32,068 nucleotides of DNA, from the IMG/VR virus record IMGVR_UViG_3300036719_000721, positions 1-32,068 of that record. One strand, written 5' to 3'. Below, piece after piece: positions 4,782 through 28,856 of the stretch (position 1 is the first letter of the stretch; the number at the start of each line of letters is the position of its first letter). The notes below the pieces were generated by a model. That model saw nothing but the letters and a program-made list of their open reading frames with translations. It did no database searches and had not been told where the DNA came from. Both the position numbers and the translations under genes were made by a program. The stretch is from a virus.

Positions 4782-6524
4782 TTAGGGAATCCATGAATAA
4801 ACCGTTGTGTCTACTGGGATTTCTGTGTCATTTGCGAAGGACTTTCCGGCGACCAGCATGTCGGTTGCGAGGACGGGTTGATCAAAGAACATGGTGATCA
4901 TTCTGTCCCACTCCTGACGCTTCTCTTGGATCAGTGCTTCCTTTGAGGATATGGCAAGGATGTCTTGAAAGTACTTGACTCCAAGGGCAAGTGCGTCTAC
5001 CCGGTCATCGTGCTTGACAGCCCCCTTTTCCCGACACATCCTGGTCAGCTGATACATCAGCATTCGAGGCAACCTCTCTTCTGGGGCCATGTCGTTGTTT
5101 GACTGGTAGTCCCAAGTGATGAGACGTTGGTCAATGACCAGCCTATGCTGATTGAGAACCGGTTCCAGTGTATCAATGATTCGGTCTTCCTTTCGAGTGG
5201 TGGCGCGTGTCTCCTCAAAGTTCATGCCGACCTTCATTTCGATAGCATGTTTCTTCAGCAGCTCCATGATGGCACCGTCACCGAAGTTGGATTCGATCAG
5301 ACACGTCTTTGACCCGAACTGCCGAGACCTACGCAGTATTTCTCTAAGAGTGGCGTCGGAGTATCCGTCTTGGGTCGCATAGATGTCCCGAATGTAAATA
5401 AAACCATTGATCTGAGAAAGAATGATGGATACCGTTTCGTCCTTTCCTCGGCCTGAGGGGTCCACAGCGGTGATGGTCTCATTCCACGGTATGAACTCAC
5501 CGGTTGCCTTTGGTCTATGCCACCGGTCACCGGGAAGCGCAACGGCAGGAAGATCAAGAAGGGTCTCCTTGTCAGCACCCCATACCAGATCAGACGGACC
5601 ACGAGCAGGGTCCAAAGATAGGACGGAGAAATCAGAAAGCTTAAGGGGAAACTTAAGGGCATCCGAAAGGCTCGTGTCAAGCATGAACTGGAGCATAAAG
5701 TTGCTCCGAGACATCGACTGTTCCCTTTCCAAGAGGTTGATCTCGGAGAAGCGGGTATCCGTTGGGGTCCAGGAAAGTTTGTCTAGCCCCTGCTCATCGA
5801 TGTCCTGTTGAAGGTCCTCCGCAAGAATGTCTTCGTACCCGACAAGGGACTTAGGGTAGCGAGCAGGCCACACGAACGGCTTATAATTGCGTTCTCTCAG
5901 GGTACGATAGATAGTAAACGTGGTTTGAGGCGTGCCAAGAAACACGATCCTACTGTCTTCCTTTGGTGTCAGCACTGACTCACCCTCCGTCACGAGCTGC
6001 AATAGCTTCTCTCGCATGAGGTCCGTAGCAGAGTTGCTTGGGACTTCCACGTCATCAAAGATGATCAGGTCAGCCCGGCTTCCCGTTAATTGTCCGGTTA
6101 TTCCAACGCTTTTGACGGATGGTGACTGAGCAGGCCGACACCCACGAACATCAAAGGATACCCGGCTCCACCGCTGGTCATCGTCCTGTGGGGTCAGGTG
6201 GTTTAACCAAGAGATCTCAATAAGACACTTCTGACAAAAGATGGTGAAGTCATCGGCTCGCTGCTTGCTGGCCGACACAACCATGATCTTCTTGTCTCTG
6301 TCCCGAAACAGGATCCACAGCGTAAAGGCAGCAGCAATCCACGACTTACCAAGACCACGAAACGCCTGGATCTGAAGACGCTTTGGTCCATCTTGGAGGT
6401 ACCTGGCAATGGCAATCTGTGCTCTTGTTGGACGAGGCAGGTCTAGCGACTTCCATACAAGAGTCAAGAAGAGTGGGAAGCTGGCCCTCAGACGGTCCTC
6501 TAAGGCCGCTGTTTTATCGGTCAT
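4782..6524 (-). CDS. Large terminase subunit / DNA maturase B (T7 gp19-like)
   Basis: The motor and nuclease that packages and cuts concatemeric DNA at the portal. The ATPase domain shows a Walker A-like loop AFRGLGKSW (residues 54-62) and Walker B DLIIFDDVE (152-160). The RNase H-like nuclease shows AVDPSGRGKDE (Asp355), LIESNFG (Glu411) and HDDRVDAL (Asp506/507). At 580 residues from the ATG at 6524 it is about the size of T7 gp19 (586). A GTG 12 nt upstream is an alternative start. It is the last late gene before the structured stretch at 4433-4781. Confidence 0.95.
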   Translation of the reverse strand: MTDKTAALEDRLRASFPLFLTLVWKSLDLPRPTRAQIAIARYLQDGPKRLQIQAFRGLGKSWIAAAFTLWILFRDRDKKIMVVSASKQRADDFTIFCQKCLIEISWLNHLTPQDDDQRWSRVSFDVRGCRPAQSPSVKSVGITGQLTGSRADLIIFDDVEVPSNSATDLMREKLLQLVTEGESVLTPKEDSRIVFLGTPQTTFTIYRTLRERNYKPFVWPARYPKSLVGYEDILAEDLQQDIDEQGLDKLSWTPTDTRFSEINLLEREQSMSRSNFMLQFMLDTSLSDALKFPLKLSDFSVLSLDPARGPSDLVWGADKETLLDLPAVALPGDRWHRPKATGEFIPWNETITAVDPSGRGKDETVSIILSQINGFIYIRDIYATQDGYSDATLREILRRSRQFGSKTCLIESNFGDGAIMELLKKHAIEMKVGMNFEETRATTRKEDRIIDTLEPVLNQHRLVIDQRLITWDYQSNNDMAPEERLPRMLMYQLTRMCREKGAVKHDDRVDALALGVKYFQDILAISSKEALIQEKRQEWDRMITMFFDQPVLATDMLVAGKSFANDTEIPVDTTVYSWIP

Positions 6525-19060: not shown

Positions 19061-22000
19061 TTAAAGTCTACCAGACTGAATGCTTTGCTTGATCCGATTG
19101 GCCAACGGCTTCCACCTACGATAAGGGGTCATCGATGTGCTGCCTTTCGGAGCTGGAGCCAAGAAGTCAATGCTGGCAATGGTTCCATCTTGAGACACAA
19201 CACGTCCAGTACCACCCTGTTTGCCTAGCACGGAGCCAATCGATACTTGATCGCCTTCTCGTACATTAATCGCATCTAGGTGGGCATAAACCACATCAAC
19301 GGGTTCTCCAGTTTGGGTATCGGTTGATTCGACAACAATCATGTTGCCATAGTTCCCGTAATTTCGTCGGATCTCTTTGACCCTGCCAGGAAGCACTGCA
19401 CCGAATTGTTTATCCGCAAACCAAAGATCTAATCCAGGTTGAAAGGAGTTACCGGGTGTTTCAATCCGAACAGACTGAACATTGGTGGGAGAGAAGTTGG
19501 CCCGACCACCACGGGCCTGGCTAAAACCCTCTCGCTTGAGCTGAGAGTAAATACGACGGGCTTCACCCATGTATTGAAGGTAACGCTTGTCTCTAAAGGC
19601 ACCCCATGCACCTGTACCATCGGTACTCAGCATCTGTGCCATCACACGAGCGTTTGTTTCTGGATCCTTCAATTCTTCAGCACTACGAAGACCGTAACGC
19701 CTCAGACGATCAGGACCAAGATTACCAATCATGTTGATTTGCCAGAGTCCATAGGAATCATCTCCAGTTTGTGCGTTCTGATTACGAACACCGGAGTCAC
19801 CAGAAGACTCAGCCATGCCAACGGCTGCCATCAGAATAGCTCTTTCTGGATCAAGTCCATTTTGAAGAGCTAACTGAAGCATTTCCCTTGTGCCTACTCT
19901 TGCGCCTGGTTTCAGGTCAACAGCAGGCCCAGGACCTTTCCCGATTTCTCTGATCCGCGCCGCTCTTTGTTGTGCCTCTGCAATGCGTCGCAGCTGTAAC
20001 ATTTGGTCCAGGTAATTGTTGCTGGAAACCAGACGTTCGGTAGCGCGAGGGGCAACAGACTGAAACTCAGTAAAACGCTTCGCTTGCGGACTATTGGTAA
20101 TCGGGGTTGGGTCGAGATCATTAATTTGTGCTTGGTTGTTCAGCAGCTGGATCAAACCTCCGGGGTTGGATGTCGCAAGCGTCGCAGCTCGCGGCGTAGG
20201 AGGTTGGCCATTCAGAAAACGATTGATGTTGTCTTCTGTTTCTGCTTTGGACAGTTGCCGAGACCCACCAGAAGTGAGCCTACGGAGTTGGATGGTTCTA
20301 GGATCGAAACCACCCGCATCAGGGACATAGCCCCGAAGTGTTGATTTTATCTTATCAGGAGTGACCGCTGGGTTGCCGCTGATGGGACGAGTTGTCCAAT
20401 CCTTTGTGGTAGGGCTTTGTTGGAAGTAACGACCAACCACACGTGGCAACTGATTTGTCAGCAGCTGATTGATGTCATTATCCTCCAAAGGCTTGCCTTG
20501 ACGCCGTGCTGAATCGTATGCTTTGTAAGCAATATCAGCAAGATCGTTGGTTACTTGCTCAACATGGAAGGTGTGCTTGAGAGGAGTGCCGAATGGATTG
20601 AGGCTAATTGCTCCAGCTTCCCTAAGGTGTGCCTTGACTCCATCAGCAATGGTTTTACCGAACTGCTTCATAAAGTCATTACGGTCAGATCCAGTTGAAT
20701 AGTCATCCAACTCATCGACCATGTTAGCAGTGAGAAGACCTGCCTGGAAATCCTTATCAAGCTGTGCCTTTGATGGACGCTGTCCTTGAGCAATGCCTTG
20801 ACGGTACTGACGGTAGAGCGTATAATCCACATTCTCAGGCTCAGCAAGAAGCTCTCCACGCAATTGAAGTGCCCTGGAGCTGCCTTGATCCGCCAACAGG
20901 CCAAGCGTTTGAACCGTCTGCCGCTTGAGCAGCTTTAGCTCTTGAGCAGGCATGTTAACATCCTGCCGTGCCTTGATTAGGGTATCAATGGCGCGTGTTG
21001 CCAGCTTCTCTCGTTCTGCGTCTGCCCGCTGTTCAAGAGCAACGGCTCGATCGTTGATGCCATCCGCAGCAGCAGAAAACTGATCAGCATAGGCTGAACC
21101 AAGAGAAATGCTGTTTGGATCGTTGGCAATCTTGGGAACCTGAGCCAGATTAGCAAGAAGCGATTCAGCAACGTCCTTTGGAAGTGATTTGATGCCAGCA
21201 AGAGCCCGCTCAAGTGCCCTATCAGACGCAGCACCACGACTTAGTCCACCCTTGATCTGATAATCAGAGGTAAGCCGTTGGAAGCTTTCTGACATATCGC
21301 CAGAAGTCATTGAAGGGTTGCTGAACTCACTGATGGTTTGACCATCCAGATCGCTAACAGCATTTTCTCGGGCCTCCTTTGCCTTGCCCATCAATTGGTT
21401 GGTGGACAATTGACCACGAACTGCTTGAAGGGTAGGAGCCAGATGCTCAACAATGATAGCAGGGTTGACCTGCTTGACACCATAATCAGCAAGGAACTGC
21501 TGCTGAGCTACCTCAAGAGCGGCCTCAATTTCGGCTGGATTGGCTGCCTGGTTAGGAGCAATGAAGCGTCCATCAGGTAGAGGAACAATCGGCTGAGTGC
21601 CCTCCATAAACGACGAGAAGAAGGCTTGTGATTTGGATGCCGCCTTCTTGGCAGTACCAACAGCCTGGCCATATGCCCTCCATCCAGAGATGGCTTGGCT
21701 CTTGTTACGGAACTCTTCAGCAACAGCAATCTGTCCCTGACTTTCCAGAGTACTAGCAACAGAGTTATCAGCCTCAGCAGATTCCTTCAGGATCAAGGAA
21801 TCACGCCGATGCTTTTCCAAAAACTCAGGCTTTAGTTCAGCAGTACCATTGATAACATCTGCCAAACCAAGAGCATACTGTTCTTCGTTCTTGCGCTTGA
21901 CAGTGCTCTGGACAAACTCATTAAGAGTGCCACTAAACTGAGTCAGAGCCTGAATGTCAGTCTCAAGGTTACGAGCATACTGACGTTCTTGAAGATTCAG

Positions 22001-26554: not shown

Positions 26555-26585
26555 AAAAAAAAAGGAGGCCCCCGTAGAGACCTCC
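26555..26585 (-). terminator. Strong terminator after the capsid gene (T-phi position)
   Basis: On the minus strand a 9-bp stem (GGAGGTCTC with GGGGCCTCC, two G-T pairs) closed by the tetraloop TACG, followed by nine T. The c(UACG)g loop is an unusually stable RNA tetraloop. It sits 35 nt after the capsid stop and 20 nt before the gp11-like start. In T7 the terminator at the same place limits tail transcripts relative to capsid. Confidence 0.95.
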
Positions 26586-26620
26586 TAACCTATTCCAAAT
26601 TTTCTCCAAATTAGGAGTTA

Positions 26621-27619
26621 TCAGACGTTGCGGAAAGCACCGGCACAGGACACACGAACGGCACCAGCACCGTAGGCCAGACGGCCCACGATCACGTCGC
26701 CCTGATAGATGACCTTGGTGTCAGCACCAGTGGTCTGAACGCTAGGACCGATCGCCTCGACAACGCCAGCAGCGTCACGATGGAAGATCAGGCCACAGCT
26801 GTTGGTGAAGTTCGAAGCAACACCGTAGTTGTTGTTCTCACCGGTAACAGCAGCAGCGTCGATGTTGGCGCCAGAAGCCGAACCATACTTACCCAGGAAG
26901 GGGATGTTGTTCGACTTGTAGATCTTGATACCAGCGATCTCATAGAGACCTTCGCCGCTGTTCAGGCTACCACCGGCAGCACCGTACTCACGGTTCAGGA
27001 TGTTGGTATCGACCTGGCTGATCAGGGCGTAGTACTGACGAGGAGCCAGCACGGCCACACGACCATCCTTAGGAGCAGCGATCTCGTCCAGGCGAGCAGC
27101 GGCTTCAAAGAAACCGTCCACGAGGGCCTGAGCATCATACTCCTTGGAGGCACCCAGGTTGATCTGGAAGCCACCGGGTTCGCCGGTCACAGCAGCGGTC
27201 AGGCCCGAAGCACGGTCCAGAACGCGGAAGATACGACGGTCATAGAACTCAGCCAGAGCCTGGCCGATCTGACGGGCGATGGGGCCACGGATGTCATACT
27301 GGGCCAGGGTCTCGTCGAGGTTATCAACGAACGCCGAGGCGACCAGCAGGTCATCCATTGCGATGGTGGTCTCAGCAGCCGGAGGGTTGCCGGAACCCAG
27401 GATAGCATTACCAGGGGTGTGATACCCGGCCTGAATACGACCGGTATGAATGAATTGAGCTTCCTTACCGCCACGCAGGGTGCGGTTCATCACCAGGCCC
27501 TTAGCGATGGTGGAGTTGCGGAAAGCTTCGTACACTTCGCCCGTAAAGAGCTTCAGATAAAGGGCTTTCTTGTCACCGGCCTTATTAACCTGGCCGAGTT
27601 GAGTTACTGTTGCAGTCAT
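26621..27619 (-). CDS. Major capsid protein (T7 gp10-like)
   Basis: A 332-residue capsid protein (T7 gp10A: 345). KALYLKLFTGEVYEAFRNST and LRGGKEAQFIHTGRIQAGYH form the N-arm and E-loop of the HK97 fold. QIGQALAEFYDRRIFRVLDR is the spine helix. The C-terminal VGRLAYGAGAVRVSCAGAFR closes the A-domain. It ends in a tandem stop (TGA TAA), so a T7-style frameshifted longer form is not expected. No good Shine-Dalgarno sequence precedes the ATG. Instead the 391-nt stretch upstream is highly structured, which may control translation or stability. Confidence 0.95.
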   Translation of the reverse strand: MTATVTQLGQVNKAGDKKALYLKLFTGEVYEAFRNSTIAKGLVMNRTLRGGKEAQFIHTGRIQAGYHTPGNAILGSGNPPAAETTIAMDDLLVASAFVDNLDETLAQYDIRGPIARQIGQALAEFYDRRIFRVLDRASGLTAAVTGEPGGFQINLGASKEYDAQALVDGFFEAAARLDEIAAPKDGRVAVLAPRQYYALISQVDTNILNREYGAAGGSLNSGEGLYEIAGIKIYKSNNIPFLGKYGSASGANIDAAAVTGENNNYGVASNFTNSCGLIFHRDAAGVVEAIGPSVQTTGADTKVIYQGDVIVGRLAYGAGAVRVSCAGAFRNV

Positions 27620-27742
27620 TGTTTTAAGGAAAGAGAAGGTTTATCAGCTTTCCAAGTACTTGGGTTTTATCCGGATTTAAAGTATTTGGTTTTTAGGAAA
27701 TACGTCCGTTGTATTGGGTGTCTGCCGCAGCAGGCCAATACT

Positions 27743-27756
27743 CCAGTCATGACTGG
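27743..27756. promoter_or_regulatory. 14-bp perfect palindrome upstream of capsid gene
   Basis: CCAGTCATGACTGG is perfectly self-complementary, in the gene-free stretch 27620-28010. It could be an operator for a dimeric protein or a short hairpin in the mRNA leader. Confidence 0.5.
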
Positions 27757-27785
27757 GTTTTTAACGAGGTTGTCCCATCCTCAAA

Positions 27786-27856
27786 AGGTCGAGCTGGGTT
27801 TGCACCAGCACTGAGTTCCAGTTGTCCTGGCTGCCTCTACATTGGGCTATCGACCT
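27786..27856 (-). ncRNA. tRNA-like fold in the capsid leader
   Basis: Read on the minus strand, 71 nt fold like a tRNA. A perfect 7-bp acceptor stem (AGGTCGA with TCGACCT) is followed by the 2-nt linker TA and a D-arm-like GCC-loop-GGC. A perfect 5-bp T-stem (GCTGG with CCAGC) encloses a 7-nt loop TGCAAAC and abuts the acceptor strand with no gap. The T-loop keeps C56 and A58 but has G instead of T at 55. The anticodon arm is degenerate: CCAG-GACAA-CTGG with a 5-nt loop and no T33. No CCA is encoded. It is probably not a translating tRNA, but could be a decayed tRNA or a tRNA mimic recognised by RNase P or tRNA enzymes. Confidence 0.55.
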
Positions 27857-27860
27857 AGCG

Positions 27861-27971
27861 ACCCCTCTGTTTGTGCTTCCAATGGATAGGCATGAGGGGT
27901 GTTTTATTTAGTTGTCCGCGCCGAAGGGGCAGCGGGACGGTTCACCATCCACCGGGGAATCCAATCCGGTG
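27861..27971 (-). other. Further hairpins in the capsid leader
   Basis: Upstream of the tRNA-like fold, on the same RNA: CACCGG/CCGGTG around a 10-nt loop (27950-27971), a 9-bp stem with two bulges closed by CCTTC (27914-27938), and ACCCCTC/GAGGGGT around 26 nt (27861-27900). No T-run follows, so none is a plain terminator. I see no gene in 27620-28010 and no clear host promoter. Confidence 0.55.
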
Positions 27972-28010
27972 TACAATCGCCGTTTTGATGCCACGGACGC
28001 GGGCAGTTAA

Positions 28011-28856
28011 TCAGATCAGATCGCCGGAAGCAGCCAGCTTCGCCTCGATGTCAAGGCGGTACGCAGGATCATTCCGATAGCGAGGGTCAGAGATGGCACG
28101 GGCAAGTTCGGCTTGTGAACGGAATCCTTTGACGGAGTTACGAACGTTCTTACCAGAAACCTGTTGACCTTCAAAGCCAACAGTATCTTTGTAACGTTGA
28201 TTCAGAGCCTGAACCGCAAAGAAGATGGCGTCCTTGTTACCGCTGTTGACAACGTTATCATAGGCAGCCACCTCTTCGGGTTTCAGGTTCTCAGCAGCCC
28301 AAGCCAGGGTCTGTTTGTATGCTTCATCGCCTCCAACGGATTTGACAATAGCATCAGCATCAGCATCACTGAGGGCCTGCTGAACTGGAGTAACATTCTT
28401 TTGAAGCTCAAGATAGGCTTCAATCAGTTGCTCCGAGGGAAGTTCCTTCAGCTTTTGAAGCGTGTCAGCATTCAACTGCTTAGAGTTATTGAACCACTCA
28501 GCCGAAGCATCCTTCAGGAGCTGAGCAGTTTCTGACACCCCATCATCGCTGGAGTCTTCTGTTTCTTGGGAGTCATCACTCTCGGTTTGTTCATCCGAAG
28601 GCGATTCTTCTGTATCCTTCTGACCTAGCTTCTTTTGAAGTTCCAGGTATGCCTTTTCAAGGTCCTCTGCTGATTTGAATTTACCAGCATAGTTGAGTTC
28701 TGCTTCTGAGTCCCTACGAGCTTTGTCATAGGTCTCATTGCGAATCTCTTCTTCCTCGTCTTGAAGCCTACTGCCAAGCTCAAGAAGTCTTGCTTCTTCT
28801 GCTTCCCTAGCCTCCGTATCAGCTGGATCGGTGGGGTCAAAGGTGATTTCAGGCAT
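28011..28856 (-). CDS. Scaffolding protein (T7 gp9-like)
   Basis: A 281-residue acidic helical protein (T7 gp9: 307) directly upstream of the capsid gene. The N-terminal third is rich in Glu/Asp (ARLLELGSRLQDEEEEIRNE). A disordered stretch (about residues 79-107) is Ser/Glu/Asp-rich. The C-terminal basic helix-turn-helix (FRSQAELARAISDPRYRNDP, then AYRLDIEAKLAAS) is the usual capsid-binding end. 'FrsqaELarAIsDPRYr.DpAYR.dVe.KLa.S' is a signature I know from T7-group scaffolds. Confidence 0.9.
   Translation of the reverse strand: MPEITFDPTDPADTEAREAEEARLLELGSRLQDEEEEIRNETYDKARRDSEAELNYAGKFKSAEDLEKAYLELQKKLGQKDTEESPSDEQTESDDSQETEDSSDDGVSETAQLLKDASAEWFNNSKQLNADTLQKLKELPSEQLIEAYLELQKNVTPVQQALSDADADAIVKSVGGDEAYKQTLAWAAENLKPEEVAAYDNVVNSGNKDAIFFAVQALNQRYKDTVGFEGQQVSGKNVRNSVKGFRSQAELARAISDPRYRNDPAYRLDIEAKLAASGDLI

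Follow-up and report, generated by a model that had tools for sequence, protein, structure and literature searches.

The minus strand of the window, the whole 32-kb virus record analyzed here (32,068 nucleotides), carries a tRNA-like fold at positions 27856 to 27786 that is real and conserved. The record, which derives from a freshwater cyanobacterial virus, is T7-like and encodes portal, head assembly, capsid and tail proteins, in that order along the minus strand, and the element lies in the 391-nt intergenic leader before the capsid gene (27619 to 26621). We believe that it probably acts as a tRNA-derived processing signal in a late polycistronic transcript, where one cut on its 5' side would free an abiF-type RNA and a second, 3' cut would free the capsid mRNA. 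The parts referred to below are as follows.

26621 to 27619, minus strand: major capsid protein gene (Pfam PF21703, phrog_267)
28011 to 28856, minus strand: head assembly (scaffold) gene, upstream of the capsid gene (phrog_1052, PF05396)
27861 to 27899, minus strand: diverged abiF RNA, an RF03085-like hairpin (Rfam match, 30.6 bits)
27857 to 27860, minus strand: spacer CGCT (same spacer and distance in other abiF-tRNA pairs)
3' end of the spacer at 27857 to 27860, minus strand: predicted RNase P cut
27786 to 27856, minus strand: tRNA-like element (fold, and covariation with homologues)
27856-27850 with 27792-27786, minus strand: acceptor stem of the element (fold, covariation)
27830-27827 with 27821-27818, minus strand: middle stem of the element, closing GACAA at 27826-27822 (fold, covariation)
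27809-27793, minus strand: T arm of the element, with loop TGCAAAC at 27804-27798 (fold, covariation)
27785, minus strand: discriminator-like base N73, a T (junction of N73 and then (C/A/T)TTG in relatives)
3' side of 27785, minus strand: predicted RNase Z-type cut
27755 to 27784, minus strand: start of the capsid leader, TTG plus an H-type pseudoknot (alignment reading)
27782-27779/27769-27766 and 27776-27774/27757-27755, minus strand: pseudoknot stems (concerted changes between relatives)

The tRNA geometry described in the original prediction was borne out on this strand. The acceptor AGGTCGA/TCGACCT pairs at 7 of 7 positions by Watson-Crick rules and is followed by a TA linker and a small D-type hairpin, and the T arm (GCTGG-TGCAAAC-CCAGC) reaches the acceptor strand without a gap and has, as stated then, a G at T-loop position 55. 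This fold is the minimum free energy structure of the element (−25.4 kcal/mol; z = −2.39, with 5 of 200 shuffles equally good) and also forms within a 371-nt leader. The combination of a perfect 7-bp stem with a gapless, perfect 5-bp/7-nt hairpin at tRNA spacing has an expectation of about 0.1 per window over both strands, and occurs once in this one, as the element itself; the fold alone is therefore only suggestive, and it is the relatives that make the element certain. On the basis of that expectation plus the conservation in relatives, a chance fold was rejected, as was a known ribozyme, for which Rfam gave just a weak Twister-sister overlap (18.6 bits).

Measured against the tRNA family (RF00005), the stacked 7-bp acceptor and 5-bp/7-nt T arm are there and a 7-nt anticodon loop with U33 is not, a GACAA pentaloop taking its place; the window yielded no ARAGORN call and no Rfam tRNA model match (≥29 bits), in agreement with the earlier statement that this is not an ordinary tRNA. 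The anticodon arm had been called broken. Its 5-nt loop is present as described, but taking it for a sign of decay was mistaken, as GACAA sits on a covarying stem in seven viral sequences. The G18G19 partner of the T-loop is missing from the window element, which counts against reading it as a processing signal.

In relatives, the same place before the major capsid gene (here called the slot) contains complete tRNAs, tRNA-like elements of about twenty other sequences, or fixed hairpins. Among 80 capsid relatives, the nearest carry the window-type element and others have very different tRNA-like sequences at that place. Complete tRNAs are found in NATL1A-7 (70.5 bits, annotated tRNA-Gly), L267 and L209, and the slot elements of L010 (45.3 bits) and L035 (36.8 bits) exceed the Rfam tRNA threshold, so that scores of slot relatives run from 36.8 to 70.5 bits; for the slot element as such Rfam holds no family, and a BLAST search in phages for tRNAs that could be close parents of the L010 and L209 elements gave just short or weak matches. 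In L009, L044, L059, L062 and L073, the middle arm is wholly lost; what persists is the acceptor, a T-loop of sequence TTCRA and a small hairpin whose loop is of the TGGT type. Unannotated tRNA-like elements also occupy the slot in the cultured marine phages Syn5, S-TIP28, S-TIP37, P60, S-CBP2 (the weakest acceptor among these phages), P-SSP7, P-SSP2, P-GSP1, S-SBP1 and S-CBP42. The junction is fixed: the element stops one or two bases 5' of TTGAGG in freshwater relatives and one or two bases before the TTG that opens the capsid leader in cyanopodoviruses. A descriptor scan returned 24 distinct matches in 127 kb of capsid leaders (73 loci), versus 31 in 4.4 Mb elsewhere, most of the latter being chance-like and inside genes and one being a leader moved away from its capsid gene by an insertion. 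By eye, TTCRA T-loops occur together with an unpaired GG in the D-like loop and TGCRA T-loops come without that GG (L190, L179, L198 and others), so that T-loop type and D-loop GG vary as would be expected if both sides of the elbow contact came and went together.

Where the slot holds a hairpin, it is in some relatives GGGGAC-TGCAAT-GTCCCC and in at least 120 IMG/VR contigs GGCACCTCRGAGTMGGACC, with a capsid gene shortly downstream in at least 113 of these. The latter hairpin (L203 to L322) belongs to no Rfam family; its loop is nearly invariant and its stem varies but stays paired. From their sequence, the slot hairpin loops may be readable as T-loop motifs (UNNRA) capping a stack some 11 bp long. 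One leader, L209, has both a hairpin followed by TTGCCCGTG... and a tRNA-Trp followed by TTGCCCGTG..., from which we take hairpin and tRNA to be interchangeable ahead of the same downstream module.

The capsid leader and its surroundings show several further features, those in the window all on the minus strand. The pseudoknot that follows TTG in the freshwater leader has two stems that, as read from the alignment, vary in step among relatives. Perfect palindromes are located at 27652-27663 (CCAAGTACTTGG) and 27743-27756 (CCAGTCATGACTGG) and stay perfect in relatives with GCGC, GATC, TCGA or CTAG as their centers, which exceeds the needs of a hairpin loop. At 27711-27741 there is a hairpin, its loop of the TRCG type and GAYA(A)CC on its 3' side, that is found again before the capsid genes of other phages, so that cyano-, pelagi- and roseophages all have it in their capsid leaders (HTVC011P [L324], HTVC019P [L323] and CRP-125 [L201]); pelagiphage and roseophage capsid leaders showed hairpins and the TRCG motif and no tRNA-like element by eye (pelagiphages also by the descriptor scan). 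A second structured element, TGCCCGCGTCCGTGG...GCGCGG, spans about 27905-28003; as the TTGCCCGTG module 3' of both L209 slot elements is related to it, the window may hold an older, duplicated leader. A terminator-like hairpin with a U-run (a weak sbrA match in Rfam) follows the capsid gene at 26556-26604. Finally, a homing-endonuclease-like gene (phrog_5046, annotated HNH, with a GEG motif by eye) is inserted between capsid leader and capsid gene in L019 (2596-2988), and similar inserts are present in L021, L023 to L026, L043, L045 and L056.

Compensatory changes in relatives, whose absence was to have decided against the original prediction, proved to be many. Across 21 slot types, 93.8% of acceptor and 97.1% of T-stem pairs form when each sequence keeps its own strands, compared to 50.9% and 67.8% when strands are swapped between sequences; because MAFFT failed to register the 5' strands of the short elements, stems were set by hand, and since they were picked for pairing, the 94% is optimistic. 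This choice has no bearing on the swap control, on the T-loop sequence or on the fixed junction. Between L059 and L073, for example, matched changes are seen both in the acceptor (GGGA/TCCC to GGAG/CTCC) and in the T stem. Seven viral elements of the GACAA class align nearly gap-free, with the GACAA invariant, and of their 19 pairs 12 have changes on both sides, amounting to 28 double-changed cells versus 9.6 in shuffles (28 was reached in 0 of 500). Middle stem and T stem are paired in all seven; the D-stem pairs are weaker (75%), with a register shift in the window and in L334. Of these seven, the window and L401 elements precede a capsid gene; near the elements of L328, L329, L334 and L335, the genes examined have primase, virion, tail and lysis functions; the seventh element is from L443.

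The earlier reading overlooked an abiF-type RNA directly 5' of the element, and with it probably half of the element's role. The family of the abiF RNA (RF03085), the antitoxin of AbiF, matches at 27899 to 27861 with 30.6 bits (E = 0.0011 over the 391-nt leader), which is below the gathering cutoff of 37; the alignment is full length and includes the outer and inner stems with the conserved loop segments. In the inner stem, AGC/GCU is changed to UGC/GCA, a form shared with S-CREM1. The unrelated siphovirus S-CBS4 has the same hairpin plus CGCT (34.3 bits), followed by a 7-bp/5-bp tRNA-like element, and full-strength abiF RNAs precede tRNA-like elements in L328 (52.8 bits), L334 and L336 (40.9 bits), the L334 element being a clear homologue of that in the window with a canonical T-loop. 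Full-strength abiF RNAs without a tRNA-like element occur as well (L332, 52.9 bits; L333, 55.7 bits). In S-CREM1, the abiF RNA, scored at 51.6 bits in its description (PMC9964418), lies 4 nt before a complete tRNA-Gly, and a 4-nt spacer, CRCU, separates clear abiF RNAs (41 to 53 bits) from the tRNA or tRNA-like element in other phages.

Of at least 51 distinct viral abiF-type RNAs, 19 have a tRNA or tRNA-like element after them (this group includes some that are closely related to each other), 11 have a U-run and 21 have neither, although two of these 21 (L416 and L513) look tRNA-like by eye. The spacer in the 19 is mostly TCRCT, and the distance from the CAAA core to the tRNA or tRNA-like element is 13 nt in most, the window included. 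Bacterial loci with an abiF RNA have an Abi_2 gene alongside, and in three cases read a U-run follows the hairpin. By contrast, Abi_2 (PF07751) was found in none of the 22 phage records with the abiF-tRNA arrangement, a set that includes several fragments and is separate from the window record; in the window, the neighbors of the RNA are capsid and head assembly genes, and no Abi_2 gene lies beside it. None of 45 matches to the hairpin pattern in bacterial genomes combined an abiF-type hairpin, CGCT and a tRNA-like unit. Many leaders have a slot element and no recognized abiF RNA (Syn5, P60 and S-TIP37, among others), and others have a non-tRNA hairpin, which may mean that the capsid role is distinct from the abiF role.

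The window element has the acceptor/T-stem stack, a U at −1 and no CCA, all features of an RNase P substrate, and its acceptor stem ends in T73 followed by TTG rather than CC, as in substrates of RNase Z. Slot elements in general are without CCA and have N73 followed by (C/A/T)TTG, with U at −1 in most intergenic ones. Cyanobacterial RNase P favors substrates without CCA (PMC4264200), and the enzyme measures the acceptor/T stack (PMC4919913) and cleaves model hairpins made of acceptor and T arm (PMC11143913); RNase Z cuts after N73, and a following C suppresses cutting (PMC7479834). In Syn5, whose slot element is at 19842 and whose capsid gene is at 20017, exact promoter copies are located just at 4929 and 44797, with none near the capsid gene; according to a published report, a single promoter lets the Syn5 polymerase transcribe over 37 kb (PMC3950665). 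The capsid gene of this phage group seems to have no promoter of its own. In the window, the one candidate for a Syn5-type promoter, a site with 3 mismatches outside the capsid leader, was at chance level and was rejected.

On the basis of the stack, the absent CCA, the U at −1, the N73 junction and the Syn5 promoter positions, our proposal is that RNase P makes one cut and that another follows 27785. The element would display the stacked acceptor and T-arm helix known to tRNA-maturing enzymes and would not be a translating tRNA. RNase P would cut at UCGCU/A, setting the 3' end of the small abiF-type RNA, and an RNase Z-type cut after N73 would define the 5' end of the capsid mRNA, with UUG and the pseudoknot. 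The earlier idea of a mimic that engages RNase P or RNase Z is, with many compensatory changes behind it, the best-supported mechanism, although both cuts are inferences of ours. In P-SSP7- and S-CBP42-type leaders, the 5' strand of the element overlaps the last part of the upstream gene, where cutting by RNase P would do damage and only the 3' cut makes sense. This layout favors a division of roles in which the 3' cut serves the capsid gene throughout and the 5' cut serves the abiF-type RNA. The freed RNA would most likely act as a toxin-free antitoxin mimic against host AbiF, an Abi_2 HEPN nuclease. Phage mimics of ToxI provide an analogy, in light of which a phage-borne antitoxin RNA without its toxin suggests a defense against AbiF. 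Tentatively, and with less confidence than in the processing signal itself, we speculate that toxin-free phage abiF RNAs are matured by host tRNA enzymes as the 5' leader of a tRNA and that some of these tRNAs were remade into a nontranslating element of the GACAA class that doubles as a capsid mRNA cut site.

Of the other explanations, the one that fares best, though we judge it unlikely, is that the element serves the capsid mRNA alone, through a 3'-side cut or as a stable block at a 5' or 3' end, and that the abiF-type hairpin has no antitoxin function. Slot elements, hairpins too, keep the fixed capsid-leader junction with or without an abiF RNA, and the L209 hairpin and tRNA both precede one downstream module; however, unrelated phages have an abiF RNA and a tRNA-like element at the same spacing with no adjoining capsid gene. 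Less plausible still would be a tRNA-like bait, bound or attacked through its GACAA loop by a host protein that binds or cuts tRNAs (e.g., a HEPN nuclease) and thereby shielding real tRNAs. While the invariance of the loop in seven viral sequences and the adjoining abiF RNA, the partner of a HEPN nuclease (PMC12373285), fit such a role, other slot elements do not have the GACAA loop, and some have no middle arm at all. A simple decayed tRNA, entertained in the original prediction, is very improbable as a functionless relic of an acquired phage tRNA gene: complete tRNAs do occupy the slot of some relatives and the window element has no anticodon loop of normal size, but the covariation of the acceptor, middle and T stems and the invariant loop contradict it, T and acceptor stems are maintained while other arms vary, unrelated phages keep GACAA, and other capsid leaders again show T-loops of the TGCRA type. 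We give hardly any credence to a host tRNA gene having given rise to the element as a site of integration or recombination, since, even though a tRNA-Leu segment is the attP of T7-like cyanophages and slot contents are exchanged between relatives, the known attP lies downstream of the integrase and not before the capsid gene (PMC8776855), and the elements covary rather than match a host tRNA exactly.

If the processing-signal reading is right, cyanopodoviruses, whose late genes are apparently on one long shared transcript (as reported for Syn5), would have a means of setting how much of their most abundant protein is made, and phages would have a general way to make a terminator-free antitoxin RNA by borrowing tRNA maturation. 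A search of the open-access literature found no paper combining abiF, tRNA and RNase P; abiF and tRNA-Gly are side by side in the S-CREM1 record, an adjacency that goes unmentioned in the passages of PMC9964418 consulted.

The proposed arrangement resembles the tRNA punctuation of mitochondria, where excision of tRNAs between genes by RNase P and RNase Z frees mRNAs, but here a single nontranslating tRNA-like element in a phage marks the junction of a small RNA and a capsid gene, and the cuts are predicted. In MALAT1/mascRNA and MEN-beta, a tRNA-like element similarly lies directly downstream of another RNA and RNase P makes the 3' end of the upstream RNA; in the present case, the setting is a bacterial virus, the upstream RNA is of the abiF type, and tRNA-like elements are swapped between relatives. 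The C4 antisense RNA of phages P1 and P7 and the his operon mRNA are likewise phage or bacterial non-tRNA transcripts matured by RNase P, without, however, an abiF RNA, a capsid leader or a recurrent tRNA slot. With the abiF RNA (RF03085) of the AbiF system, the window RNA shares a hairpin with AAGCCU..GCUCAAA segments; it differs in having no toxin gene, in a tRNA-like element that replaces the U-run and in a score below the cutoff. The T7 gene 10 region also has a capsid gene after a scaffold gene and a structured leader. T7 uses a promoter in that region, in contrast to Syn5, which has no promoter copy near its capsid gene. In summary, the component parts are of known kinds, and their combination and the capsid slot appear to be new.
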